Source: a virus. From it: a DNA stretch of 20,632 nt. This document shows, in pieces, positions 1 through 20,632 of the stretch (position 1 is its first letter; each line of letters begins with the position of its first letter). The position numbers were made by a program, and so were the translations under genes. Below the pieces are notes generated by a model, which had not been told where the DNA came from, did not search any database, and was given only the letters and a program-made list of their open reading frames with translations. The DNA lies in the IMG/VR virus record IMGVR_UViG_3300008261_000200, positions 1 to 20,632 of that record. One strand, given 5' to 3'.

Positions 1-2116
1 TGCTGCTATCGAGGAACGTGTTGTTCTGCGCTCCGTTCGTGCCGTTACCGGGCAGCAACAGAGTGGTGTAGTCGAAGTATGGATCGGCAGTCAGCGTGAC
101 CGTGCCGCCAATGTTGGGCAACTCCATCGTGGGGGGCGTGAAGTTGTAGGGGTAGCGGGCAATGCCTTTGGTTACGCGCCAATCGTCAAGATATCCATTC
201 CACGGCCAAGTGCCGCCCGGCTGCTGCCCAATGTTCAGCGTTTTAGAAACCGATCCGATTGAGTTGGCATTTGTAATCGTGGCAAACACGCTGCCGTTGA
301 TATATGCCTTGATGACTCCGGCACTGCGTGATGCGGCAAAGTGATACCAAGTTCCGGTCTTAATAAGACCGGTTGCAAAGAAACTTGTGTTGGCAGTCGT
401 TAAGAAGCGTAGCGACCCGTTGTTCTCGATTTGAATCAACCACTCATCAGTCGTTCCCGTAGTCCAAGTGCCGCCCAAAACGTAATACTGATTTGCAAAC
501 GAATTGAGGTAAAACCATCCCTCAATGGTGAAGTCGCCGGTTCCAAAATTGATGCTTTGACTGTACGGAGTCGTTAAGTAATCCCCCGTCCCATCAAACG
601 CCATCGACCCCGTGCCGTACTTCTTCACGCTAGTGCTGATCTGGGCATTGCCCACAGTCTCGTAGTCGGCAACAGCAGCGTTGTCGAAGATGGCTCCGTT
701 GGTGAAGTTGGTGAGCAGTTGGGTGTTGGTAACCGCTGTTGGAGGAGAAGTTGGCGGAGTGAACGTGGACGTTCCGTAGACAGCCGTGCCGTTTACATAT
801 CGAACACCCGACATATACCCAAAAACCGGGTATCCCCCAGACACCGAAAGATCGCCAATACGCAAAGCATCAGTTCCAGTTCCCGGCGCAGAAGACGATG
901 TGCCAAGGCTGCTCGCTACACCGTTAACAAATCCAACATATGAATTTCCGCTACGGGTAACTACTACGTGCTGCCATGCGTTGGCTATAAGTGTTCCAAA
1001 CGTCGCGTTGATGTAATACGTTCCGCTATTGTTTGAGGATAGCGCCAAACCCCACGCTGCACCGTTGCTATAAACCTGAATCCCTATTCCCTTCGTATAC
1101 CATTCACGAATACCGGAGGCGGTGAGCGGATAGGCCCAAAACTCAATCGTAAAGTCGCCAGCCGGAGTCAGTACGGCGTTGTGTGCTATGTCTAAATTAT
1201 CCCCGGCCCCATCAAAGTAACCGCTGCCACCGATACTGCTGGTTGAGTACGGCGTGGTGGGGTTGAAGGGGGAGAAGGGTTGGACGGAGACATCGCCGTT
1301 GCGCGTGATGGCAAAAGCGTTGGAGGAAGCGTCTAGGAAACGGTTGGCTTGGCAGGTCAGCAGCGACGTTCCGCTGATCGCGGTAAGGGGCGTGAGGCTG
1401 GGCGTGAAGTTGGCCGTGTAGACGGCCGTGCCTTTGACTACGCGAAGATTTGAGATATAACCATTTAAGGTATATCCCGAAAGGTTTATTCCACCGATTG
1501 CTGGAGTCGTCGTTACAGTCCAGTTTGAACTGTCGGTTCCTGTTGCAACAGCAGTTCCATTTACATAGATCTTCGTGTCGTTACTCGCGGTGCTATTTCT
1601 AACAACAGCAATGTGGAACCATTGATTTGGCGTAACCGAATTTGCCGGAGAAGAAAAAACGGCTCCCACTCCGTATGTACCTAAAGAAACGGCTCCATTG
1701 CTTAAGATTGACGTACTCAATGCGCCGGTATTTGTCCCAGCCTCAAAAAACGATGATTGAGTGGCTGCTTGAGCATTCAAATAAACCCAGCCTTCAACCG
1801 TATACGCACCAGTTCCAAACGCAAATGCCGTGTTACTCGGCATCGTCAGACGCGTTGCTGTAGCGCCATCAAAATAGTTGCCCCACCCCGTCTGACTGAA
1901 CGGGCTAAACGAGCCTTGGGTGGTATTCCCGTTGCGCGTGATGGTGAAGTTGTTGGTAGACGAATCCAAGAACGTATTGTTCTGGCCGCCATTGGTGCCA
2001 TCGCCGTGCAGCAGGGCAACTACATAGTTGAAGAACGGGTCTACTGCCTGAACGACGTTCGCAAAGAGTCCATAGCCTCGGGCAGTGGCAGCGGCAATTC
2101 GACCAATAAGAGGCAT
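1..2116 (-). CDS. LamG/concanavalin-like multi-domain tail adhesin (3' end cut by window edge)
   Basis: The reading frame is open from ATG 2116 to the left edge: 705 sense codons and no stop, so the C-terminus is missing. AAGGAG sits just upstream (CTTAAGGAGTTGTC-ATG). I see three jelly-roll LamG-type modules. Module 1 is at about residues 80-240 (FDGATATRLTMPSN, YTVEGWVYLN, ending VKGTAVYTANFTP). Module 2 is at about 299-455 (FDGAGDNLDIAHN, DFTIEFWAYP, VNGTAVYGTSTFTPP). Module 3 is at about 500-662 (FDGTGDYLTTPYS, DFTIEGWFYLN, VTKGIARYPYNFTPP). A fourth unit starts at 678. LamG_3/concanavalin folds usually bind glycans, and in phages they occur in tail adhesins. It is the last gene visible in the fibre cassette, so I infer a receptor-binding or virion-surface role. 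The domain type is clear from motifs; the ligand is unknown. Confidence 0.88.
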   Translation of the reverse strand, partial: MPLIGRIAAATARGYGLFANVVQAVDPFFNYVVALLHGDGTNGGQNNTFLDSSTNNFTITRNGNTTQGSFSPFSQTGWGNYFDGATATRLTMPSNTAFAFGTGAYTVEGWVYLNAQAATQSSFFEAGTNTGALSTSILSNGAVSLGTYGVGAVFSSPANSVTPNQWFHIAVVRNSTASNDTKIYVNGTAVATGTDSSNWTVTTTPAIGGINLSGYTLNGYISNLRVVKGTAVYTANFTPSLTPLTAISGTSLLTCQANRFLDASSNAFAITRNGDVSVQPFSPFNPTTPYSTSSIGGSGYFDGAGDNLDIAHNAVLTPAGDFTIEFWAYPLTASGIREWYTKGIGIQVYSNGAAWGLALSSNNSGTYYINATFGTLIANAWQHVVVTRSGNSYVGFVNGVASSLGTSSSAPGTGTDALRIGDLSVSGGYPVFGYMSGVRYVNGTAVYGTSTFTPPTSPPTAVTNTQLLTNFTNGAIFDNAAVADYETVGNAQISTSVKKYGTGSMAFDGTGDYLTTPYSQSINFGTGDFTIEGWFYLNSFANQYYVLGGTWTTGTTDEWLIQIENNGSLRFLTTANTSFFATGLIKTGTWYHFAASRSAGVIKAYINGSVFATITNANSIGSVSKTLNIGQQPGGTWPWNGYLDDWRVTKGIARYPYNFTPPTMELPNIGGTVTLTADPYFDYTTLLLPGNGTNGAQNNTFLDSS
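2..85 (-). repeat. Super-repeat unit copy 2 in the LamG gene
   Basis: This encodes residues 678-705 (from DPYFDY to QNNTFLDSS), the second copy of the block at 1958-2041. Because it lies at the window edge, a further LamG set probably follows outside. Confidence 0.8.
1296..1311. repeat. 16-base direct repeat, copy 2
   Basis: Exact copy of the 16-base word at 1929-1944, within the start of LamG module 2. Confidence 0.75.
1929..1944. repeat. 16-base direct repeat, copy 1
   Basis: CCGTTGCGCGTGATGG is identical at 1929-1944 and 1296-1311. On the coding strand it gives the AxTRNG strand that opens LamG modules 1 and 2 (NNFTITRNG and NAFAITRNG), a trace of internal duplication. Confidence 0.75.
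1958..2041 (-). repeat. Super-repeat unit copy 1 in the LamG gene
   Basis: This encodes residues 26-53 (from DPFFNY to QNNTFLDSS). The same 28-residue block returns at residues 678-705 with 20 of 28 positions identical, including GTNG and QNNTFLDSS. It marks the start of a composite unit of about 652 residues holding three LamG modules. Confidence 0.8.
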
Positions 2117-2125
2117 GACAACTCC

Positions 2126-2779
2126 TTAAGCAAACCGCGTTTGGGCAGCAAGTACCGTGAACGCCGCGCTACCTGTCTTGATGATCGTGTAAGTATAAGC
2201 ATCAATCCCCGAAGCGTTACCTGATGTCCACGCCGTGCCACCTTGATATTTCGGAGTCACACTCGCTCCGTCCACTTGCACCGCGTTGTTGTAGAACGCC
2301 GGACTGCCCTGCGTAACAAGGAACGCTACCGTGACGCTTTGCCCGGTAGACATCAACGTGTTGAGGGAGGTACCCGAGGAACCACGAAAGTTCACCGTCC
2401 AGTTCGCAGAAGCATTGCTTGTGTAGTATAGAACGCTCTGCGTGGTGACATCGTAGTTAATCGTGCCTGTAGCCGCTGTAGCTGAGATAGTCGTGGTTTC
2501 AGCGGTGTCTGCAACAACCATGGCCAAAACAGACGAAGTTCCATTGAAGGTCTGTGTTGCCGTGAATGTGTTGGCCACGCTAGTCGTAGGAATGCCTGCC
2601 CCGGCAAGCGTAGTTGCGCCAGTGCCACCAGATCCGACTGGAAGGGGATTAGTCAGCGTTACCGCCTGTCCTGACGAGATGGCAATAGCCGTCGTGCCGT
2701 TAGTCTGAATGTTCAGAGCGGCAGTGCTACTACCTGTTTGGACTATGCCCCCGGAGGTGGCGTTAACGATGTTTGTCAT
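2126..2779 (-). CDS. Tail fibre-like structural protein
   Basis: 217 residues, starting at the ATG directly after the stop of the upstream gene (TAAATG), with GGAG six bases before it. The protein is rich in Thr, Ser, Ala and Gly and has no enzyme motif. Residues about 47-62 read LPVGSGGTGATTLAGAG, a linker seen in many phage fibre and collar proteins. The C-terminal half (about 110-217, with SANWTVNFRGSSGTSLN, VAFLVTQG, and the ending AFTVLAAQTRFA) matches my recollection of a beta-rich terminal domain common in aquatic phage fibres. It lies between a small conserved tail-region protein and the LamG adhesin. I infer a fibre or adhesin subunit; the receptor is unknown. Confidence 0.8.
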   Translation of the reverse strand: MTNIVNATSGGIVQTGSSTAALNIQTNGTTAIAISSGQAVTLTNPLPVGSGGTGATTLAGAGIPTTSVANTFTATQTFNGTSSVLAMVVADTAETTTISATAATGTINYDVTTQSVLYYTSNASANWTVNFRGSSGTSLNTLMSTGQSVTVAFLVTQGSPAFYNNAVQVDGASVTPKYQGGTAWTSGNASGIDAYTYTIIKTGSAAFTVLAAQTRFA

Positions 2780-3097
2780 TTAAATCTCCGCACTCCACGG
2801 CAGCGGAAGGCTGACCACAGGAGGATTGATTTTATCATTAAGCTCGCGCTGTACGTTCGCCTCAACCTCGGCCTTGTCCACTCCGTTTGCCCAAATCCAA
2901 CCCAGCACTTCGACTTCGGTCAGATCGGGATAAGCAACAAAGTCACCGCTTGGTGAAGCGAAACCCATGCTGCCGTAGTTGGACGCGCTGTGGTCGCCAT
3001 CTACCGCCGTGCAGCGCCATGCAGCCGTTACAACCACATCTGCGTGCGAGCCGTCCTGCGGCTTAACGACCATGCTCTCAATTTTCCAAGTAGCCAT
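2780..3097 (-). CDS. Conserved small tail-region protein (DUF7936-like)
   Basis: 105 residues from ATG 3097. A TTG two codons upstream (3103) is possible, but AAGGAG (within the end of the sulfotransferase gene) is eight bases before the ATG and too close to the TTG. The sequence opens with MATWKIESM and holds AAWRCTAVDGDHSASNYG, then DLTEVEVLGWIWA, and ends in PPVVSLPLPWSAEI. This resembles a family of about 100 residues found beside fibre genes in aquatic phages, which I recall as DUF7936. No function is established for it. The stop touches the next start (TAAATG), which implies translational coupling with the fibre gene. Confidence 0.8.
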   Translation of the reverse strand: MATWKIESMVVKPQDGSHADVVVTAAWRCTAVDGDHSASNYGSMGFASPSGDFVAYPDLTEVEVLGWIWANGVDKAEVEANVQRELNDKINPPVVSLPLPWSAEI

Positions 3098-3099
3098 TT

Positions 3100-3690
3100 T
3101 CAATACTCCTTGCCAAGAACGTCCTTGGCAAACTGATAGTCGGCTGCGTAGTAGTTGCTAACAAAATCACGAACCTTGTCGGTGATGACGCTGCGGCCAA
3201 AGTCGCTTGCTTTATTCAACACGGGCATCGGCTCATCAAACGTCGCCACAACGCGGGTCAATTCAGCCTGCATATTGTGATAGTCCAGCGCAGTCACTTT
3301 TTGGTGTTTAAGCCAATCAACCTGAGGACGAAACAGCAACAGGCTGTCATCAAATAATGATGAAAAATTATCAACCATCTCATCGTAACTAATTTCTTCT
3401 AGGGTCTTAGTAACGCCTATGCTCTTCAGTTTAGCCTCTACAACTCGCGAAAAAATCCTATGTTGTTTAGCGTAGAGAAGCGCACTCTCAAATCGCTCAA
3501 TAGGATTTCTAAAAAACCCGTAAATTGAGTAATCGACTAAATTTGGATACAACTCAATAAGCTTATCTACGGTTTCGTGTTTTTCTTTCAGCCTAAAAAA
3601 ACCGTATTCCCGCAAATAGCAGCGCAGCGATGTCGATCCCGTTTTTGTCGGGAGTACGAAAGCAATCTTTAGTCGCTTGTCAAAAACCAT
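3100..3690 (-). CDS. Sulfotransferase-like protein (PAPS-binding motifs)
   Basis: 196 residues. Residues 14-22 read PTKTGSTSL, which fits the 5'-phosphosulfate-binding loop of sulfotransferases (PKTGTTxL type). Residues 58-70 read YGFFRNPIERFESA, which fits the 3'-phosphate-binding segment (RxPxERxxSA). The spacing and length suit a compact Sulfotransfer_2-like domain. Such enzymes move sulfate from PAPS to a sugar or other acceptor; the acceptor here is unknown. The gene starts in a TAATG overlap with the 96-aa gene, and its end carries the Shine-Dalgarno of the 105-aa gene, so it belongs to the tail operon. Base composition is unusual: two 60-base blocks (3361-3420 and 3541-3600) are about one third GC, against about 62% in a block of the portal gene. 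This suggests recent acquisition. Confidence 0.72.
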   Translation of the reverse strand: MVFDKRLKIAFVLPTKTGSTSLRCYLREYGFFRLKEKHETVDKLIELYPNLVDYSIYGFFRNPIERFESALLYAKQHRIFSRVVEAKLKSIGVTKTLEEISYDEMVDNFSSLFDDSLLLFRPQVDWLKHQKVTALDYHNMQAELTRVVATFDEPMPVLNKASDFGRSVITDKVRDFVSNYYAADYQFAKDVLGKEY

Positions 3691-3983: not shown

Positions 3984-4895
3984 TCACCAAGTAATAGAGC
4001 CAGAGCCATTAAAGGTATACGTTCTGAAGCCGCCAGAAACGGTGACAGTTGGTGATCCAGTAGTAGAAACTGCCGCTGTAAACGCATCTGAATAACGAAT
4101 AATTACAATTCCTGATCCACCGCTACCGCCTACGTTTCCGGTGCTGGCAGTATCGCCATAGGTGCAAGCCTTTGCGCCACCGCCACCGCCACCACCGCCA
4201 GTATTTGCGCTTCCCGAAGTACCGGCTGCTTCTCCAACAGCGCCTGCACCACCGCCGCCGCTACCACCACTACCGGGGCTTCCCTCTCCGCTAATTGCGC
4301 CACCGCCACCGCCACCGCCGCGAGTAACGCTTGCAAAGGTTGACCCTGCTCCGCCTGTTGCGCCTGATCCATTAGCACTTGCGCCACCAGCGCCACCACC
4401 TGCGCCGGAGCCACCTGCGGCACCGTTATTCCCTTGTCCGCTAGTCCCAGCGGCGCCACCCTGACCAAAGGCGGCAACAAAATTACAGAAAATATCTCGG
4501 TCAAGATAATACTGACCACCGCCGCCAGAGCCGCCGTCTGAGGCGGAACCGGAGCCAGCGCCTCGTCCATAGCCACCGGCAGTTGCAGTAATTGAAGAAA
4601 AAACAGAGTTAGAAGCGCTTCCCGGAGAAAACGCCGCAGCGCCGCCACCACCGACTGTCACCGTGTATGTCGTACCAGCAGATATTGAAAATCCGCTTGC
4701 CGTTCTATATCCGCCCGCACCACCACCGCCACCGGCTCGGCCTATGTGGTAGTACGCAGCAACAGAGGAAATATATTCGTAGACTTGATACGAATATCCG
4801 CCTGCGCCACCGCCAGCGACTACAAGATATTCAACAGACGGGGGAGCGGCTGGAGCCCCTTTTGCTGCAAGCAGCAATTGCATTATTCCCGACAT
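3984..4895 (-). CDS. Glycine-rich tail adhesin
   Basis: 303 residues. After a short helix, residues 22-33 read EYLVVAGGGAGG, followed by many Gly runs (up to eight or nine in a row) interrupted by short polar strands such as GGYRTASGFSISAG. The Gly-rich part closes with GGSGIVIIRY near residue 265. The last 35 residues (GGFRTYTFNGSGSITW) form a typical terminal strand pair. This architecture matches the glycine-rich-domain phage proteins and recalls T-even gp38 adhesins, where polyglycine-II helices form the receptor-binding tip. I infer host recognition. The coding strand is dominated by GGN codons, which creates long GC-rich low-complexity DNA. The start follows the fibre stop by one base (TAATATG). 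Confidence 0.85.
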   Translation of the reverse strand: MSGIMQLLLAAKGAPAAPPSVEYLVVAGGGAGGYSYQVYEYISSVAAYYHIGRAGGGGGAGGYRTASGFSISAGTTYTVTVGGGGAAAFSPGSASNSVFSSITATAGGYGRGAGSGSASDGGSGGGGQYYLDRDIFCNFVAAFGQGGAAGTSGQGNNGAAGGSGAGGGAGGASANGSGATGGAGSTFASVTRGGGGGGGAISGEGSPGSGGSGGGGAGAVGEAAGTSGSANTGGGGGGGGAKACTYGDTASTGNVGGSGGSGIVIIRYSDAFTAAVSTTGSPTVTVSGGFRTYTFNGSGSITW

Positions 4896-8843: not shown

Positions 8844-9095
8844 TTAGCCGCAAGATCCGCCGTAGCGCATCTTCTTGACCTTCTTCTTGGCCATGCCGCC
8901 CTTCTTGTAGCCGCGGGCCATGCCGCCGCCCATCATGCCCATAGCCATTTCTTTATGCTGATTGATGGCACCACCCTTAGAGGCCATGACGACCTTACCG
9001 GTCTTCATGCTGGGCTCGGAAACCACCTTGTTTTTTGGGCCACTGCCCACTGCGCCGCCGCCTTTGATGGCCGCGCCCATTCCACGTCCTGCCAT
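8844..9095 (-). CDS. Tiny basic Gly/Met/Lys-rich protein with GGGAV motif
   Basis: 83 residues from ATG 9095; the open frame extends to 9137 but the extra residues overlap the preceding gene. GAGGG lies seven bases before this ATG. The protein opens MAGRGMGAAIKGGGAV; residues 6-16 align, number for number, with residues 6-16 of the 108-aa protein at 9516-9842 (MG-x-A-I/L-K/R-GGGAV). The C-terminal half alternates Gly, Met and Lys (MAMGMMGGGMARGYKKGGMA) and ends KKMRYGGSCG. It is strongly basic and low in complexity, so probably disordered or nucleic-acid-binding. Similar tiny proteins are frequent in aquatic phage structural regions; their role is unknown. Confidence 0.72.
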   Translation of the reverse strand: MAGRGMGAAIKGGGAVGSGPKNKVVSEPSMKTGKVVMASKGGAINQHKEMAMGMMGGGMARGYKKGGMAKKKVKKMRYGGSCG

Positions 9096-9099
9096 GATA

Positions 9100-9261
9100 T
9101 TACCCTCGCATCGCGCGACCGCGCGCGTCCTTACCACCCTTCTTCATAGCACGGCCTTTCTTATCAGCCATGCCACCCTTCTTCATCTTACCGACGCCAT
9201 CGGCAGCGAAAGAAGGAACCTTCTTGCCACCTTTCATGACCATCTTAATCTTGCCAGGCAT
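9100..9261 (-). CDS. 53-residue basic KKGG-repeat protein
   Basis: A very short gene read directly from the sequence: ATG 9261 to TAA 9100. It begins MPGKIKMVMKGGKKVPSF and continues with KMKKGGMADKKGRAMKKGG and a basic tail KDARGRAMRG. GAGGGA precedes the chosen start by seven bases; an ATG two codons upstream (9267) is too close to that site. It fits exactly between its neighbours, with two bases after the previous stop and four bases before the next start, so the space would otherwise be an unexplained gap in a tightly packed operon. The KKGG(M) units echo the 83-aa neighbour (YKKGGMAKKK). Function unknown; possibly DNA- or RNA-binding. Confidence 0.65.
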   Translation of the reverse strand: MPGKIKMVMKGGKKVPSFAADGVGKMKKGGMADKKGRAMKKGGKDARGRAMRG

Positions 9262-10497: not shown

Positions 10498-11088
10498 TCA
10501 CAAGACTCCTTTTAAATGCTGATACTTGAGCGCAAGCTTACGCGTGGACGAAATGTCCTTCCCCAGAACACGCGCGCGCTCTGCATACGTCATGTCTGGA
10601 TTGTCAACTATGTACTTGAGTTTTGCAATGAACTCGGGATCTGAAAAGTAACGAGCACGCTGCGCTTCTGACAGCGTCTTTCGATAGGTTTCAGCGCGGA
10701 AATCAAACGTCGAGGCTCTGCGGCCTACCCTGATCCGCTCACGCACCTCTTCAGAATGCTGACGGTTTCGCATGGGGGCTTTAGCAAAGTCCGCAATATT
10801 GTAAAACGTGGGCTCGTCAAACCACGCTTCCTTGGACAGAAACGCTTCTTCAATCTTGTCCAAATCCTCAGTGTCTTCGCATACCACCTCAACCTCCCAA
10901 ATGAAGTTGTGGCGGCCGTACTTGTTGTATGCGTACTGAAGCTTGGCGTTCGGGTGTTTGTTCCAGCGAAGCAGTCGAAAGTGTTCCTTTATACGCTTCT
11001 TGACGCGTTGGGATTGCCCGACGTAACAGGCGTTTGTCGCCTTGTTGACGATCTTGTAGATCCCGATAACGTCCTGAGCGTATGGCAC
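10498..11088 (-). CDS. GIY-YIG homing endonuclease (freestanding, SegA/I-TevI-like)
   Basis: 196 residues from GTG 11088, chosen because AAGGGGG lies six bases upstream. The longest frame starts at GTG 11160, but those extra 24 codons are read through the terminator hairpin. Residues 9-26 read GIYKIVNKATNACYVGQS: GIY at 9-11 and the YVG variant of YIG at 22-24. Next come R28/R32 and H36, and a likely catalytic Glu at 80-81 (KIEEAFL) before FYNIAD. A NUMOD3-like segment follows (RNRQHSEEVRERIRVGRR), then a C-terminal helix-turn-helix-like part (TYAERARVLGKDISSTRKLA). Such enzymes nick or cut phage DNA to spread their own gene. It sits between the capsid gene terminator and the next head gene, a typical intergenic invasion site. 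Confidence 0.9.
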   Translation of the reverse strand: MPYAQDVIGIYKIVNKATNACYVGQSQRVKKRIKEHFRLLRWNKHPNAKLQYAYNKYGRHNFIWEVEVVCEDTEDLDKIEEAFLSKEAWFDEPTFYNIADFAKAPMRNRQHSEEVRERIRVGRRASTFDFRAETYRKTLSEAQRARYFSDPEFIAKLKYIVDNPDMTYAERARVLGKDISSTRKLALKYQHLKGVL

Positions 11089-11094
11089 AAACAA

Positions 11095-11101
11095 CCCCCT
11101 T
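11095..11101 (-). promoter_or_regulatory. Shine-Dalgarno deciding the endonuclease start
   Basis: AAGGGGG on the minus strand, six bases (TTGTTT) before GTG 11088. It favours this start over GTG 11160, which would be inside the terminator region. Confidence 0.6.
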
Positions 11102-11134
11102 GGACGAACTCTATGCCAACCTACGGGTAAATGA

Positions 11135-11156
11135 AAGGGGGCCTTTCGGCCCCCTT
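11135..11156 (-). terminator. Intrinsic terminator after the major capsid gene
   Basis: Perfect 9-bp stem AAGGGGGCC / GGCCCCCTT with a GAAA tetraloop (minus strand), followed by TCATTT. It begins 13 bases after the capsid stop. It would end or attenuate transcription after the capsid gene, so genes at lower coordinates may be made in smaller amounts or need another promoter. I saw no clear sigma-70 promoter between it and the endonuclease start. Confidence 0.82.
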
Positions 11157-11169
11157 CCACTCTTGCCTC

Positions 11170-14084: not shown

Positions 14085-14092
14085 CTCTCCTT
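14085..14092 (-). promoter_or_regulatory. Shine-Dalgarno deciding the scaffold start
   Basis: AAGGAGAG (minus strand), five bases before ATG 14079. It overlaps the TAA of the GroES-like gene and rules out ATG 14097 as the main start. Confidence 0.7.
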
Positions 14093-14558
14093 ACCACATG
14101 TGCAGAATGTCTTCGGGATCCGCAACGATGCCGAGAACCTCGTCATCGTTAATCAGCCGGATCTCGCCACCGTCGATGGGGATACGCGCGCCGGCGTAGC
14201 GGCCGAAGATGATCCAATCACCCTCCGCGCACCACGGGCCGGTCGGGAACTTGGACTCGTCGTTGTACGCGATCGGGCCCATCTTCAACACGTAGCCACA
14301 GACCGTACTGACCTGTTGTCTACGTTGCGTTTCCTCTGCCAGAGCAATGCCGCCCTTGGTCTTCTCCGCACCGCGATACGGCAGGATGGCAATGCGCCAG
14401 CCCGTCGGGGTGGGGATACGATCAATGACAGCCTGATCCAGGTTTTGGGGCTTCAAGCCTTCAACGGTGTACGCGTCTTCGAGAGACGGTGCCTTGTTGG
14501 CTTCCTCCTCTTGCCACTTCTTTTCCAAAGCGGTGAGGGGTCTTGCATCTGCGCTCAT
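14091..14558 (-). CDS. GroES-like co-chaperonin (phage-encoded)
   Basis: 155 residues, longer than bacterial GroES (about 97) because of a 45-residue charged N-terminal extension. The Cpn10 barrel starts near residue 48 (IPTPTGWRIAILPYRGAEK). The mobile loop is at about 64-83 (EKTKGGIALAEETQRRQ) with GGIAL matching the GGIVL groove-binding tripeptide. Then STVCGYVLKMGP, an insertion YNDESKFPTGPW, and EGDWIIFGRYAGARIPIDGG and EVLGIVADPEDIL. GroES caps the GroEL ring. T4 gp31 and related phage versions adapt host GroEL to fold the capsid protein. The gene is immediately before the scaffold and capsid genes, which supports that role. GGAAGGAG precedes the ATG. Confidence 0.9.
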   Translation of the reverse strand: MSADARPLTALEKKWQEEEANKAPSLEDAYTVEGLKPQNLDQAVIDRIPTPTGWRIAILPYRGAEKTKGGIALAEETQRRQQVSTVCGYVLKMGPIAYNDESKFPTGPWCAEGDWIIFGRYAGARIPIDGGEIRLINDDEVLGIVADPEDILHMW

Positions 14559-15069: not shown

Positions 15070-17382
15070 TCAGCCTCCTCCAATTTTTGCTGCCTGTAAT
15101 TGCAGCTTCTGTTGATCGATCTGCGATGACTGTTGGAACTTCTGACGCTCCAACTGCAACTTCTGTTCGTTGAACTGGATCTTGGCCTGCTCGGAAGCCG
15201 CGCGCTGCTCGATCTCCTTTTCCTTGAGCGCCACGAGCGGATCTTCGCCGCCACCGCCACCTGCCAACTGGTTCTGAAGGTCACGAACCTGCTGCATATA
15301 CGAAGTGATCTTGATCGCGACCATGCCTTCCTTCTGGATCGGCGAAACCATTCGATCAGGATCCAGTCCATACAGTTTGAAGAGGTCAGCTTCCACGTCT
15401 TCCTCGGCCTTCAAGCGCACATGCTCGAGGATGTGCTGCTGCAAGGTCATCGCCGCCATCGGATTGCCCTGAAGGATCGGCGAGAGGCCCATCATCAAGT
15501 GCGTGGCGATGTGCGCATCGTGCTGCTGACCCGCGAACGCCTTCAACTGCATCCCGTTCAACACAGAAGCGTTCTCGCTTGCCGGATCACGGGGCATTTG
15601 GTTGTTCTGCGGCAGCAACAGACCGTCGATGTCACGCACGTTGAGCGCCGCGTACACGCGGTAGTACGCCTCGTAGATGTTGTGCATCTGCGGGGCGCTC
15701 TGTGCCATCTGCAACTGCATCTGTGCGAGCTGGATACGCTGCGCGCTGCTGAAGATGTTGGGATCGGCAACCGGAAGCACCGACACCATCTTGTTGAAGT
15801 CGGCCTTCTTGATCTTCCGGCTCGCACCCGGCACTTCGTACGGGTACTCATCCGGCAGATACTCGCCAAAGCCCTCGGCGAGCAGTCGGAACTCCAACGA
15901 CTGTGCGTAGTGCAGGCGTTTGTGGATCGCCGACATGACCATCGAGCCACGCTCGAGCAACGCGAGCGTCGTTCCGACCTGCGCGTACTGATTTCCGTCT
16001 CCGACCTGCATGTCGGCCGTGCTCGAGAGCCGCTTACCAGCGTCAACGAGGAACCCAAGCAGCGCAAACAGCACTTGGCTCGGCTCTTTGTACGGCAGCG
16101 GCAGCAAAGACGAAGAAAGTTCCGCGCCGCCCGCGTCAATGTCGCGCCACTCGCCCGGTTGGATCGGATCTGAGTCGTCCGCGATGCGCGCGCCCTTGGC
16201 TTTGAAGCCCGCAGGCAGGTTTGCCAGCGTTCCGGCGTCAATTAATTGACGAAGTGCGGTCGTCGCAGCCTTTGAAAGGCCGCCGATGAGGTGCACAAAG
16301 CCCAAACCGTACGCGCCAGGGCCTTCGACGAGCACGTAGTGCACGTAATAGTTTCGGCGGCGCTTGAGTTCGTCCTCTTCCTTCCAGTTTCGGCGGATTC
16401 CGATAACCGCAAGCGAGTCTTCGGCCAGTGTGACGACGTACGGGAGCTTAATTTTGGTCGGCTCGCCGCTTTCGTCAATGTCTTCAAAGCCCGGAATGTC
16501 CAAATCAACCAGCATTTCGAGCAAAAACACTTCGCCAGCCGAATCTGTGGGCTGTACGCCCACGACTTTGTCGATCGCAGCCTGAATCTGGCTCGGATCC
16601 GCAGGCGTCGGCTCCAAATCCACCGCTACATCAAGGTATTCGCCGGCCACAACGCGCTTGCGGAACTCGTTTGAGTCCATCGCAAGACGATGCGTCAGCC
16701 GCGGACACTGCGAAACGACGCTCGAACCGTTGTACGGGATGTAAACATCGTCCGCCAAGCACAGTTTGGACACCATTCGGCCCAACTGAGCGTCGTAGTA
16801 CACCTTCTTGAACGTCGATCCGCCGTATCCGGTGTAGTACAGGAGCTGATCGAACTCCGGTGTGTACTCTTCCATCACCGTCGTGATCTGGTAATTCATG
16901 AAATCCTGCACGCGAGCGGCTTGCTGGAACTTGTCCACCGTCTCTTTGCCCAGGATCTGCGTGCGGACAGGGCCGCCCGCGGGCATCAGCTCACGGAAAG
17001 CCTGCGCCTGGAACTGAATGATCGACTCTTGCAGCATCGGATGGGCTGCACCAGCCGCACCACGGAAGGGCTTGGTGCGCTCTTCCATGCGCAAGCCCAA
17101 CAGATCCAGCCCCTTGGCGTACATCTGCTCCCAATCCGAGCGCGATCCCTTGTCCGCCTCGAACATGGCAGACACGTCAATGGCTATCCGGGCTAAGGCC
17201 TCCGGCTCAATGACCTCGGCTAGGTTGGCGTAGAAGTCAACTTCCTTCGCCTCCTGCTCACCAATCTCGACTATCGCCCCACCGTCCTCGTCCAGGACGA
17301 TCTCGATCTCAGGGGCGGCGTCCTCCTCGAACACGACAATGTCCGCGTCCGGGGCTTGGTTGATAGCTTTGTCAATTGGCAT
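15070..17382 (-). CDS. Portal protein
   Basis: 770 residues, in the range of large podovirus portals such as P22 gp1 (725). The N-terminus is acidic and probably flexible. Residues about 75-140 carry the typical block (SRSDWEQMYAKGLDLLGLRM, TKPFRGAAGAAHPMLQESII, AFRELMPAGGPVRTQILG). Next come YTGYGGSTFKKVYYDAQLGR, VYIPYNGSSVVSQCPRLTHR and EFRLLAEGFGEYLPDEYPYE. From about 715 a Gln/Lys/Glu-rich coiled coil (KEKEIEQRAASEQAKIQFNE) ends in GGG, as expected for a barrel-like C-terminus. It forms the twelve-fold ring for DNA entry and exit at one vertex. AGGA lies upstream of ATG 17382, 32 bases after the PcfJ-like stop. Confidence 0.93.
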   Translation of the reverse strand: MPIDKAINQAPDADIVVFEEDAAPEIEIVLDEDGGAIVEIGEQEAKEVDFYANLAEVIEPEALARIAIDVSAMFEADKGSRSDWEQMYAKGLDLLGLRMEERTKPFRGAAGAAHPMLQESIIQFQAQAFRELMPAGGPVRTQILGKETVDKFQQAARVQDFMNYQITTVMEEYTPEFDQLLYYTGYGGSTFKKVYYDAQLGRMVSKLCLADDVYIPYNGSSVVSQCPRLTHRLAMDSNEFRKRVVAGEYLDVAVDLEPTPADPSQIQAAIDKVVGVQPTDSAGEVFLLEMLVDLDIPGFEDIDESGEPTKIKLPYVVTLAEDSLAVIGIRRNWKEEDELKRRRNYYVHYVLVEGPGAYGLGFVHLIGGLSKAATTALRQLIDAGTLANLPAGFKAKGARIADDSDPIQPGEWRDIDAGGAELSSSLLPLPYKEPSQVLFALLGFLVDAGKRLSSTADMQVGDGNQYAQVGTTLALLERGSMVMSAIHKRLHYAQSLEFRLLAEGFGEYLPDEYPYEVPGASRKIKKADFNKMVSVLPVADPNIFSSAQRIQLAQMQLQMAQSAPQMHNIYEAYYRVYAALNVRDIDGLLLPQNNQMPRDPASENASVLNGMQLKAFAGQQHDAHIATHLMMGLSPILQGNPMAAMTLQQHILEHVRLKAEEDVEADLFKLYGLDPDRMVSPIQKEGMVAIKITSYMQQVRDLQNQLAGGGGGEDPLVALKEKEIEQRAASEQAKIQFNEQKLQLERQKFQQSSQIDQQKLQLQAAKIGGG

Positions 17383-17414: not shown

Positions 17415-19304
17415 CTACTCGCCTCGCTCTTGCCGACGTTCGGCGCGGCGCAGCTCTCGTAACTGCTGACGCGCGGCCTTCTGCTCAGGAGGCTCCGCGG
17501 CTTTGCGGACGGCTACCCGTTCTTTGACCATGGCGCTATGACGGGCGTTCAGCTCGTCCAGGGTAACAAAGCGCGCGCCCTCGTTCTGCATGTCCTCGAG
17601 TACTTGCCGAGCGACATGGTCAGCCATCTTAGTCCGAACCCAGTTGTCTGAAATCTGGCTGCTGTTAAGGTCGACTAAGTTCGCGTTACTTAAATCCTGA
17701 ACCATGTCCCACTGCTGGCTCTTGACGAAGTCCTGCACAAACGGGATGTAGTCGGCTTTTGGCTTGAGATTACCTTTACCTTTGATCTGAAGAATCCTTC
17801 CAAGCGGTGTCGGAAGTGGATCTCCGTTTTCATCGAGCCAGCCCTGCTCGTTGAGCATCCGCATCTTTTCGTTCTCATCAAGATCCGGATACATCGCATC
17901 GATCTGTCGCTTGGACTCGGCGAAGGAACCGTACGGCTCGACTTCGATCGTCACGTGCGGCGCACCCGTCTTCTTGTCGCGAAGCGAGTAGATTTGCGAT
18001 CGGCCAGCGAGGACGTCCTCGCAGTAGCCACGAACACAATGGCCCATTAGGTCCGCTTCGTAGTTGAGCGCATCCTGAAGGACTTGCCGATTTTTAGGGG
18101 AATCTGTTGTTAACTGGAACCAGCCATACTTCTGATCCGGATAGTCTTTAAACGGCACCGTAGCGGCGTTGTTCGCCAGCGCGAAGTTCGCCTCTGCCTT
18201 TTGCTTCTCACGCCACTTGTTGATCTTGCTGACATGGCGCACGGCATCAGGCACGGACATGCGGCCGAGCTGCTCGTTGGTTAGACGGAGTTGTTGCGGT
18301 AAGCCTGCCTCTGGGTCAATGGAATTCAACAACTCATCACGAAGGTGGTCAAAGCCCAGGTCTCGGCCCAACTCTGAAGAAGGAACATAAAACTTACGAT
18401 CTGGATCTACTTCTTGAACTTTATAGATCCAGGGATTTTCGTCTAAGAGCCGCTTTATGTTCGGATTCGAGCGATCCTGAGCCAGCAAACTATTAAGTCT
18501 CTCACTACCCATCATGTAGTCAGTGGCACCTTCCCATACACGGGCGGCGCCTGACTCTGCCATGAGCGTCGGGGCGGGCTGGCCGAAAAGGGGGACACCA
18601 TACATGCCAGGATCGTAGTTAATCATCTCAGGATCCACATGCAGAATGTCCTGCTCCGCAAGTTTGCGGATCGGATCCTCCGGAGTCGCCATCTCATTGC
18701 GGATGTATTTGGCGAGCTTGGTGTCGAGCCAGTTATTGATCGCCTTTTCTTTTGACGGTCCGTCTGTTTCCGGCTCCCAGTATCTTATCCTTTCGATCGC
18801 TTCCAGTTTAGTCGGGAAGTCTCCGCCCTTGGGCTTAACGACCTGCGATACAGGGCCGGCCTTCGGTGCGCCGGGCACCTTGGGCAACGGAGTGAGCGTC
18901 TCGGCAATGAACTGCGTTACGCCAGCAGGACTCGAGATGGTCTTCTCGCCGTATTCTTTGAGCGACTGCAATGCATTAGCAGCCGTTTTTCGCGGCTCAC
19001 GGACCGCGCCCTCCAAAGCAGACACCGCGGTGTCGTATGCAGCAGTGTCATACGGATCAGCCGTGCCACGAAGCTCCTCGGGACTCTTCTGCCGCTGACG
19101 CTCCATGAAACCACGCAGGACGTTGTACATAGACCCCGGCAACTGCGCGAGGCCCTCGTACACGTCCACTACCGCCTGACCACCGACCTGCGACAAGAAC
19201 GTCGGATCGTACTGACGCGGATCACGCCACGTGCCCGCGTTAGGATCGACCGGAGCCGGCTTGTCCACCGGCCGCGGTACAATCTTGGACAGATCCTGCG
19301 CCAT
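17415..19304 (-). CDS. PcfJ-like domain protein
   Basis: 629 residues, starting in a TAATG overlap with the upstream gene. The Pro-rich N-terminus (VPRPVDKPAPVDPNAGTWRD) is followed by helical sequence and a predicted soluble body. Near residues 418-450 I read MGHCVRGYCEDVLAGRSQIY followed by SLRDKKTGAPHVTIEVE, and near 499-507 LQIKGKGN. This matches the PcfJ-like signature (MxxCVxxYxxxVxxGxxxIYSLR...GxPxxTIE...QxxGxxN), with conserved Cys and His/Asn. PcfJ was first named on plasmid pCF10; the biochemical activity is not known to me. The C-terminus is a charged helix (LRELRRAERRQERGE). It is translated together with the 5'-cut gene and lies just before the portal gene, so it may be a virion or packaging accessory protein (inference). 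Confidence 0.8.
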   Translation of the reverse strand: MAQDLSKIVPRPVDKPAPVDPNAGTWRDPRQYDPTFLSQVGGQAVVDVYEGLAQLPGSMYNVLRGFMERQRQKSPEELRGTADPYDTAAYDTAVSALEGAVREPRKTAANALQSLKEYGEKTISSPAGVTQFIAETLTPLPKVPGAPKAGPVSQVVKPKGGDFPTKLEAIERIRYWEPETDGPSKEKAINNWLDTKLAKYIRNEMATPEDPIRKLAEQDILHVDPEMINYDPGMYGVPLFGQPAPTLMAESGAARVWEGATDYMMGSERLNSLLAQDRSNPNIKRLLDENPWIYKVQEVDPDRKFYVPSSELGRDLGFDHLRDELLNSIDPEAGLPQQLRLTNEQLGRMSVPDAVRHVSKINKWREKQKAEANFALANNAATVPFKDYPDQKYGWFQLTTDSPKNRQVLQDALNYEADLMGHCVRGYCEDVLAGRSQIYSLRDKKTGAPHVTIEVEPYGSFAESKRQIDAMYPDLDENEKMRMLNEQGWLDENGDPLPTPLGRILQIKGKGNLKPKADYIPFVQDFVKSQQWDMVQDLSNANLVDLNSSQISDNWVRTKMADHVARQVLEDMQNEGARFVTLDELNARHSAMVKERVAVRKAAEPPEQKAARQQLRELRRAERRQERGE

Positions 19305-20632
19305 TACTTTTTCTTCGGCGGGATACGGATGTTGACCGGACGATCAACGCCCTTCTTGTTTGCGTACTTGACGAGCGGGTTCGACTTCTCCCCTACATCG
19401 CCCGTGTAGTCATAACGATCCTTCACGACCAACGTGCCATCAGGCAACCGCTCAAACACAAACTGCCCAAGCGTATTACGCAGATTCGCCGACTCGCCAG
19501 GATTGAAGTCAGAGTCCAACAGCGCTAACGGCAAGCCAGTCTCAGGGTTGCGACGACGGATCTGCTCACGGTGATGTGCGTAATCGACCACACCCGGCAA
19601 CGGCTTACCCGTCTTCTCGCTCAATGCAGGATTCGACTCGGCAATTCCAATCAGCTCACGCAGCTTCTCCAACTCTTGCGCCGACATGCTCTTCTCCGTA
19701 AACGGAGCTCTGAGTTTGGCAGGGTCTCGCACCGACTCCGCGTAGGTCTTTACCTGCAACGGAGATGCGCCAAAGAGCTTGTCCATGAAGCTTGGCTCTT
19801 TGTCCGCAGGACCGCCTTCAGCAAAACGCCTCGCGGCTAATGGCCCGCGAGCCGTGAGCGTTGGTTTGGTCAGCGTGTTGCGAAGCAAATCTTTGTACTG
19901 CTCACGCGAGGTGGGCTCTTTCGACACCGTGGCCTCTTCCATCTTCGTGGAGATGCCTTTGCCCAAACCGCTCTCAACGGACTTACGCGTCGTCCTCTTC
20001 ACACTACGCGCATTAGGCGACACCGACACTTCGGTCTGCGTCTGCTCCGGTGCAAGGGCTAGGAGCCGACGAAGCGCGGCTTGGGCAGAGTCGGAAGCCG
20101 GCTCGAGGTTGTCCTCTTCCTCCTTCACCTCACCGCCCTCGGCAAAGCGCATGAGGCCGCCACCCGGGGACATGATGCGATTGCCCAAGCGATCCGTGTA
20201 GTAACCCAACCCACGCAAGCCACCGAGAATCTCCGGGCTCAGGTTCGGGTTCTGCGCAATCATGTCCGTGGGCAACGGGCCTTTGTAATTGCCAATCGGG
20301 TTGTAGTTCGAGGGCAACGTGCCAGGGAGCATGGACCCCGGGACATTGCCAAAGAACTGCGGCTTGCCCGGAGTGAAGTCGATGTTGCGCACGCCAGTGG
20401 CCGTCGGCGTCGAGATCGACACAGAAGGCGCGTTCGGGGTCGGCACCGTCACAGGGGTCGAACCAATCGAAGGGCCTCCAGTCGGCATGCCCTTGTAGCC
20501 ACCGAGGTTTACCGCAGGTGCCTTGCCAAACATCCTGTTGTACGCCTCAAGGAGCGCGGCCGACGGGTCGTACGGTGTGACCTTGCCCGGTGGGGGCTGA
20601 ACAGGCGGGGGTGGTGTCGGTGGAATAACCGG
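19304..20632 (-). CDS. Proline-rich protein with RFAEGG motifs (5' end cut by window edge)
   Basis: An internal ATG exists at 20533, but the frame stays open for 33 more codons to the right edge (including TPPPPVQPPPGKVTPYD and EAYNR), so the true start is probably outside. The visible part has 442 codons before the stop. Layout, numbered from ATG 20533: a Pro/Gly/Ser/Thr-rich, likely disordered N-terminus; RFAEGG at 129-134; a Lys/Glu-rich linker; a second RFAEGG at 236-241; then a more ordered C-terminal part (AQELEKLRELIGIAESNPAL, HHREQIRRRNPETGLPLALL, FVFERLPDGTLVVKDRYDYT) with a Lys-rich tail PPKKK. FAEGG-type motifs recur in aquatic phage proteins without known function. I do not recognise the protein. 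Its stop overlaps the PcfJ-like start (TAATG). Confidence 0.75.
   Translation of the reverse strand, partial: PVIPPTPPPPVQPPPGKVTPYDPSAALLEAYNRMFGKAPAVNLGGYKGMPTGGPSIGSTPVTVPTPNAPSVSISTPTATGVRNIDFTPGKPQFFGNVPGSMLPGTLPSNYNPIGNYKGPLPTDMIAQNPNLSPEILGGLRGLGYYTDRLGNRIMSPGGGLMRFAEGGEVKEEEDNLEPASDSAQAALRRLLALAPEQTQTEVSVSPNARSVKRTTRKSVESGLGKGISTKMEEATVSKEPTSREQYKDLLRNTLTKPTLTARGPLAARRFAEGGPADKEPSFMDKLFGASPLQVKTYAESVRDPAKLRAPFTEKSMSAQELEKLRELIGIAESNPALSEKTGKPLPGVVDYAHHREQIRRRNPETGLPLALLDSDFNPGESANLRNTLGQFVFERLPDGTLVVKDRYDYTGDVGEKSNPLVKYANKKGVDRPVNIRIPPKKK

Follow-up and report, generated by a model that had tools for sequence, protein, structure and literature searches.

What does a phage encode directly ahead of its portal gene, in the place where a terminase gene often sits, when the protein found there resembles PcfJ? 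The question is raised by P0001, a reading frame in a 20,632-base IMG/VR virus fragment; this whole stretch is called the window below. The ORF is intact, with 629 codons, an ATG start and no internal stops, and its length is not a product of chance, because none of 1000 base shuffles stays open over it. Its start overlaps the stop of an upstream partner gene, P0002, in the sequence TAATG, and the portal gene follows after 32 nt (Table 1). The original prediction had described P0001 as a PcfJ-like protein immediately upstream of the portal gene, with a Pro-rich N-terminus and a charged C-terminus, coupled to a motif-repeat protein; it had suggested a link to DNA packaging or, alternatively, an internal virion protein. 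Its description was borne out in every point: the neighbour is a portal gene, seven of the first 34 residues are Pro, the last 48 include 13 K/R and 9 D/E, and P0002 carries the motif FAEGG at residues 130 and 237 of its truncated ORF. The suggested functions divide, as will be seen.

Table 1 Features of the P0001 locus in the window.
Feature	Position (nt)	Strand	Basis
P0002, upstream partner, Pro-rich, two FAEGG motifs, 5' end cut by contig end	19304..20632	-	ORF
FAEGG motif 1 of P0002	20132..20146	-	sequence
FAEGG motif 2 of P0002, just ahead of the C-terminal domain	19811..19825	-	sequence
P0002 C-terminal domain, residues 245-409, colicin M-like by fold ranking	19307..19801	-	model, VIA-align
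DRYD, corresponding to the first half (DxYD) of the colicin M motif	19409..19420	-	sequence
Slot gene P0001, PcfJ-like protein, 629 aa	17415..19304	-	ORF, Pfam and PHROG matches
Constant N-terminal module (residues 1-150), retained when the C-terminus is exchanged	18855..19304	-	comparison of relatives
Border between the modules at residues 147-155 (PKAGPVSQV), where the window looks recombinant	18840..18866	-	DNA similarity to L008 / L005
Folded C-terminal part, residues 161-629	17418..18824	-	AlphaFold2, most 10-residue blocks pLDDT 88-98
PcfJ core, residues 391-546	17667..18134	-	near-invariant residues in aligned relatives
PF14284-matched stretch, residues 416-457	17934..18059	-	Pfam
QIKGKG, residues 506-511, position 511 variable	17772..17789	-	alignment of 75
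Charged helical tail, residues 582-629	17418..17561	-	model and composition
Portal protein	15070..17382	-	phrog_1216, E=1.3e-35

PcfJ-like proteins are widespread in mobile elements, both conjugative elements and phages, and to our knowledge no function has been assigned to them. P0001 matches the family profile PF14284 with E=0.0019 and 18.4 bits, short of the curated cut-off of 25; the same residues match phrog_3169 (unknown function) at E=5.5e-6. We take the weak PF14284 match to be real, because 56 of 75 aligned relatives match the profile at E 0.01 or better (best 1.3e-11) and the score of L069, 32.8 bits, lies above the cut-off. Judged by its sequence, P0001 is a diverged PcfJ-like protein. 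The core E-x5-HCVGGY...SLRD...PHVTIE is common to the family and to the P0001 group: E416, H422, V424, G426, L441, P449, T452, E454, Q506 and G509 are kept in 72 to 74 of the 75 rows (Q506 and G509 in 73 each), and G511 in 41. The group differs from the family at Cys423, which is Ser in 18 of the 75 sequences; the cysteine is therefore not essential to the PcfJ-like family here. NCBIfam returned no match for P0001 or P0002, and among proteins of known structure no sequence relative was convincing.

A relative is encoded in 445 viral stretches, and the best 80 of these were retained. Cellular genomes, by contrast, contain hardly any close relatives (5 loci in the collection, four of them from MAGs, the best at 48% identity), which argues against a bacterial origin. 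A conjugative-plasmid origin is likewise disfavoured, and the group again departs from the PcfJ-like family, in that the P0001 version of the domain had no match in the plasmid collection, even with E values as high as 1 allowed. Neither is P0001 a terminase: Pfam and PHROG contain no terminase match for P0001 or P0002, and relatives carry a separate large terminase subunit (TerL).

Relatives of the window phage share the gene order TerL, slot gene(s), portal, GroES-like gene, other head genes and capsid, where by slot we mean the place between TerL and portal. They include DSL-LC04 and the pelagiphages HTVC023P and HTVC027P; DSL-LC04, the nearest named relative, is a lake-metagenome assembly for which a new family has been proposed (PMC10611076). 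The phage group that carries the slot is large, widespread and aquatic. In the window itself, the GroES-like co-chaperonin lies between portal and capsid at 14091-14558 on the minus strand (Pfam Cpn10, 6.8e-8) and is likewise annotated in several relatives. In one relative, L019, the portal is spread over two ORFs (848-3174), owing to a frameshift or a sequencing error.

TerL and portal are both visible in 41 loci, counted without de-duplication; 38 of them have at least one intervening ORF of 100 aa or more, and in CRP-901, Pag-Yong1 and RLK the slot is empty. Of the complete portal-adjacent slot ORFs, the shortest has 201 aa (L022) and the longest 2016 aa (L102), about 6 kb. Single-linkage clustering by the last 300 aa sorts 98 slot proteins into 27 groups, and the PcfJ core, sought with a profile built in this analysis, is present in 35 of 84 portal-adjacent slot genes.

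Homologues of P0001 are not scattered at random among phage genes. In neighbourhood samples made non-redundant at 80%, the similarity-based sample has 34 loci whose flanks can be seen on both sides; 25 of them lie between TerL and portal, and seven show neither gene in the form typical of this lineage, in a sample biased toward the window's own lineage because the search retains the most similar loci. Among loci sampled by motif pattern, however, only 6 of 14 with both flanks visible lie between the two genes, and eight have neither marker. By PHROG, 57 neighbours (of 78 listed) in the marker-less loci include another portal family (3 members) and several TerL families, together with scaffold, major head protein, helicases, polymerases and nucleotide-metabolism genes. 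The link of the PcfJ-like slot gene to packaging genes is thus strong in the window's lineage and partial outside it.

The contents of the slot change abruptly between close relatives. L017 and L008 are 96.4% identical in DNA up to L017 base 3596, which corresponds to slot residue ~137; the remainder of the slot gene is unrelated, and 12 nt ahead of the start of the portal gene identity returns, at 97.2%. The pair L018 and L015 shows the same pattern with flanking identities of 95.0% and 97.5%, so that in both sibling pairs the slot gene is wholly replaced from residue ~140 onward. In the window, DNA similarity to L008 extends as far as residue 155 and similarity to L005 sets in at residue 152, which suggests a natural recombinant joined where the two modules meet (residues 152-155).

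The same holds beyond single pairs. Where portal identity is at least 95%, similarity between the last 250 aa of the two slot proteins is undetectable in 27 of 50 pairs, but for TerL this is so in 0 of 9 pairs and for capsid in 0 of 12; at 85-95% portal identity the corresponding figures are 83/133, 0/23 and 0/20, all from pairs that are not independent, as loci recur and some contigs are near-copies. At the sequence level, the slot is hypervariable, with sharp-bordered module exchange behind a constant N-terminus.

These observations weigh on the packaging half of the original prediction, here considered in the form of a terminase- or portal-associated protein needed for packaging. Such a factor would well adjoin TerL and portal, and in other phages the gene does recur near other portal and TerL families. 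We nevertheless consider a direct packaging role very improbable: P0001 and P0002 have no terminase match in Pfam or PHROG, the relatives' TerL is separate and upstream, 3 of the 41 loci contain nothing in the slot, and the C-terminal contents of the slot are replaced wholesale between siblings whose flanking genes are nearly identical, TerL and capsid staying constant.

The domains exchanged in the slot point to effectors. A Pfam scan of 41 slot proteins gave, over the cut-off, six matches to DUF6973, two each to LPD23 and zeta toxin, and one each to PcfJ (L069), ART-PolyVal (L096), DUF4214 and a calcium-binding repeat. Below the cut-off it gave ART-PolyVal in six more proteins, RelA/SpoT, GNAT, PcfJ and DUF6973 in one each, and other weak matches; many of the 41 have no informative Pfam match. 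LPD23 and PcfJ are combined in the slot protein of L040. The module swapped into L017 and L018 belongs to no family found by Pfam, by a slot-ART profile or among PDB sequences, and our guess by eye that it is an ADP-ribosyltransferase was dropped, none of the three supporting it; its relatives are hypothetical proteins in four phage records.

We propose, with a probability of roughly 0.6, that P0001 is one allele of an exchangeable cargo slot, with a constant N-terminal module and an exchangeable C-terminal effector delivered with the DNA. We infer virion packaging, delivery and enzymatic action as follows. A flexible N-terminal module of ~150 residues would tie the slot product to the portal or the head interior; made late and packed into the head or portal, the product would enter the host together with the DNA, and its C-terminal enzyme would modify or disarm host functions. 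Phages would swap the module against different hosts or defences. The virion half of the original prediction fits better than the packaging half, in the form of exchangeable delivered cargo.

The partner gene bears on the same question. A single ORF in L046 and in L053 unites P0002-like and P0001-like parts, so P0001 and P0002 appear to be one protein divided over two genes, and would correspond to the single large polyvalent protein of relatives. The C-terminal domain of P0002 is exchanged for DUF6973 in some relatives. A resemblance of this domain to colicin M was noted from the sequence before any fold search; in VIA-align, the colicin M family then accounted for 11 of 14 listed entries, including all of the first eight, with a top Z of only 4.2. 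Foldseek returned a mixed list for the same model. DxYD is conserved in both P0002 and the colicin M family, for which the full motif, DxYD(x5)HR, is described as required for activity (PMC8469651, PMC5821083). P0002 differs from that family in having no His-Arg pair: its DRYD is followed by YTGDVGE. Lipid II hydrolysis by P0002 is not to be assumed, because only the first half of the motif is present.

A colicin M-like partner, suited to periplasmic action on cell-wall precursors, would also agree with a structural or pilot protein, which would belong to the internal core, assist the DNA in crossing the envelope and vary at its C-terminus to match host envelopes. The slot's place between TerL and portal favours this too, and the delivery step would be identical to that of an exchangeable effector. 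A pilot protein is still unlikely in our estimation, since the slots of relatives hold zeta toxin, ART and LPD domains, which are not structural, and since three of 41 loci do without any slot gene.

An exchangeable, delivered effector has close precedents. Phage polyvalent proteins occur among late virion genes and are predicted to be packaged and injected, according to Iyer et al. 2017 (PMC5512222). The proteins covered there and those of the slot are both large and variable, lie near late genes and carry ART, LPD, zeta toxin and RelA/SpoT-type domains. The slot differs from that account by its fixed place between TerL and portal, its constant N-terminus with an exchangeable C-terminus, and its PcfJ domain; the word PcfJ is absent from the main text of the paper. 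Location among late virion genes, one criterion for polyvalent proteins, applies to the slot gene, and P0001 itself has one recognised Pfam domain, so by Pfam it is not multi-domain. In the open-access literature searched, neither PcfJ as a cargo of virions nor the slot itself was found to be described.

The MuF polymorphic toxins of temperate phages (PMC5576092) resemble the slot in their constant N-terminus, variable C-terminus and position adjoining the portal. They differ in possessing a MuF domain, a gene immediately downstream of the portal and a small immunity ORF, whereas the slot gene lies upstream of the portal. P0001 matches no MuF family in Pfam or PHROG at an E value of 1 or lower, and most loci have no room for an immunity ORF behind the slot gene: in 76 of 84 the gap to the portal does not exceed 60 nt, and in the window it is 32 nt. 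P0001 is therefore not a MuF toxin. An immunity gene would be superfluous for a phage whose host dies in any case.

A gene so freely exchanged and dispensable may also recall a moron, a late accessory gene whose product, for example in superinfection exclusion, never enters the virion; the virion location of a cargo is, after all, one that we infer. We regard this as quite unlikely, for the slot has a fixed place, new C-termini are joined to the constant N-terminal module in sibling pairs, and genes of up to ~6 kb are large for a dispensable function outside the virion.

If P0001 is delivered as an effector, what would it do? AlphaFold2 predicts its structure with a mean pLDDT of 81, residues 161-629 being mostly confident and residues 1-160 of low confidence. 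In a viral structure library, the best matches are other phage proteins named PcfJ-like. Foldseek found nothing significant in the PDB for the PcfJ core (best E=0.084), although 47 of the 50 matches listed are, by title, acetyl- or acyltransferases or their complexes; such a uniform list is not automatic, as the mixed one for P0002 attests. VIA-align ranks HAT1 first for the core, with Z 7.8 over 117 residues, a value within the tool's stated background.

The GNAT motif is Q/R-x-x-G-x-G/A, and QIKGKG of P0001 resembles it. GNAT acetyltransferases dominate the fold ranking of the PcfJ core and P0001 has a Q-x-x-G-x-G-like stretch, but the scores are not significant. Sequence profiles lend homology to GNATs no support: hhalign with nine E. 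coli GNATs gave E=0.38, and no Pfam GNAT match was found for P0001. From the model, a GNAT-like fold of the core is possible, with odds somewhat below even, and an active acetyltransferase is a more doubtful proposition; a GNAT-like transfer reaction may yet be the likeliest chemistry of the PcfJ module, a weaker point than its delivery. Acetyl transfer offers a concrete, testable biochemical guess for PcfJ.

A short motif recurs along the slot proteins. The pattern [FY]xxGG, its middle positions restricted, is present 151 times among 98 slot proteins, as against a mean of 11.3 and a maximum of 20 in 200 shuffles. The 171 portal ORFs contain no copy of it, the 104 TerL ORFs two and the 79 capsid ORFs 14. 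The motif often stands 11-20 residues before the C-terminus, or ahead of domains. We speculate that this FAxGG-type motif is a processing or packaging signal. A KKGG variant was seen by eye in a small ORF at window positions 8844-9137.

A fuller scenario would combine these elements into an immunity-free polymorphic cargo locus, in which PcfJ is a GNAT-fold transferase delivered with the DNA, the partner a colicin M-fold protein acting at the envelope, and the FAxGG linkers processing or packaging signals; taken as a whole, we think it rather improbable. The proposed cargo slot as such has wider uses. With its modules exchanged between near-identical phages, the fixed slot is a natural catalogue of candidate virion-delivered effectors, and those phages supply natural allele pairs for testing them. 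In phages from freshwater and the sea, new proteins for host takeover or counter-defence might also be sought there.

Three further ORFs of the window, all on the minus strand, drew attention by eye. The one at 10498-11160 adjoins the major capsid gene and resembles a GIY-YIG homing endonuclease, with a start reading GIYKIVNK...YVGQS. Among the tail-side genes, the ORF at 3100-3690 is sulfotransferase-like (PTKTGSTSLR, FRNPIERFESALLY). The ORF at 3984-4895 is very glycine-rich and is possibly a tail adhesin.
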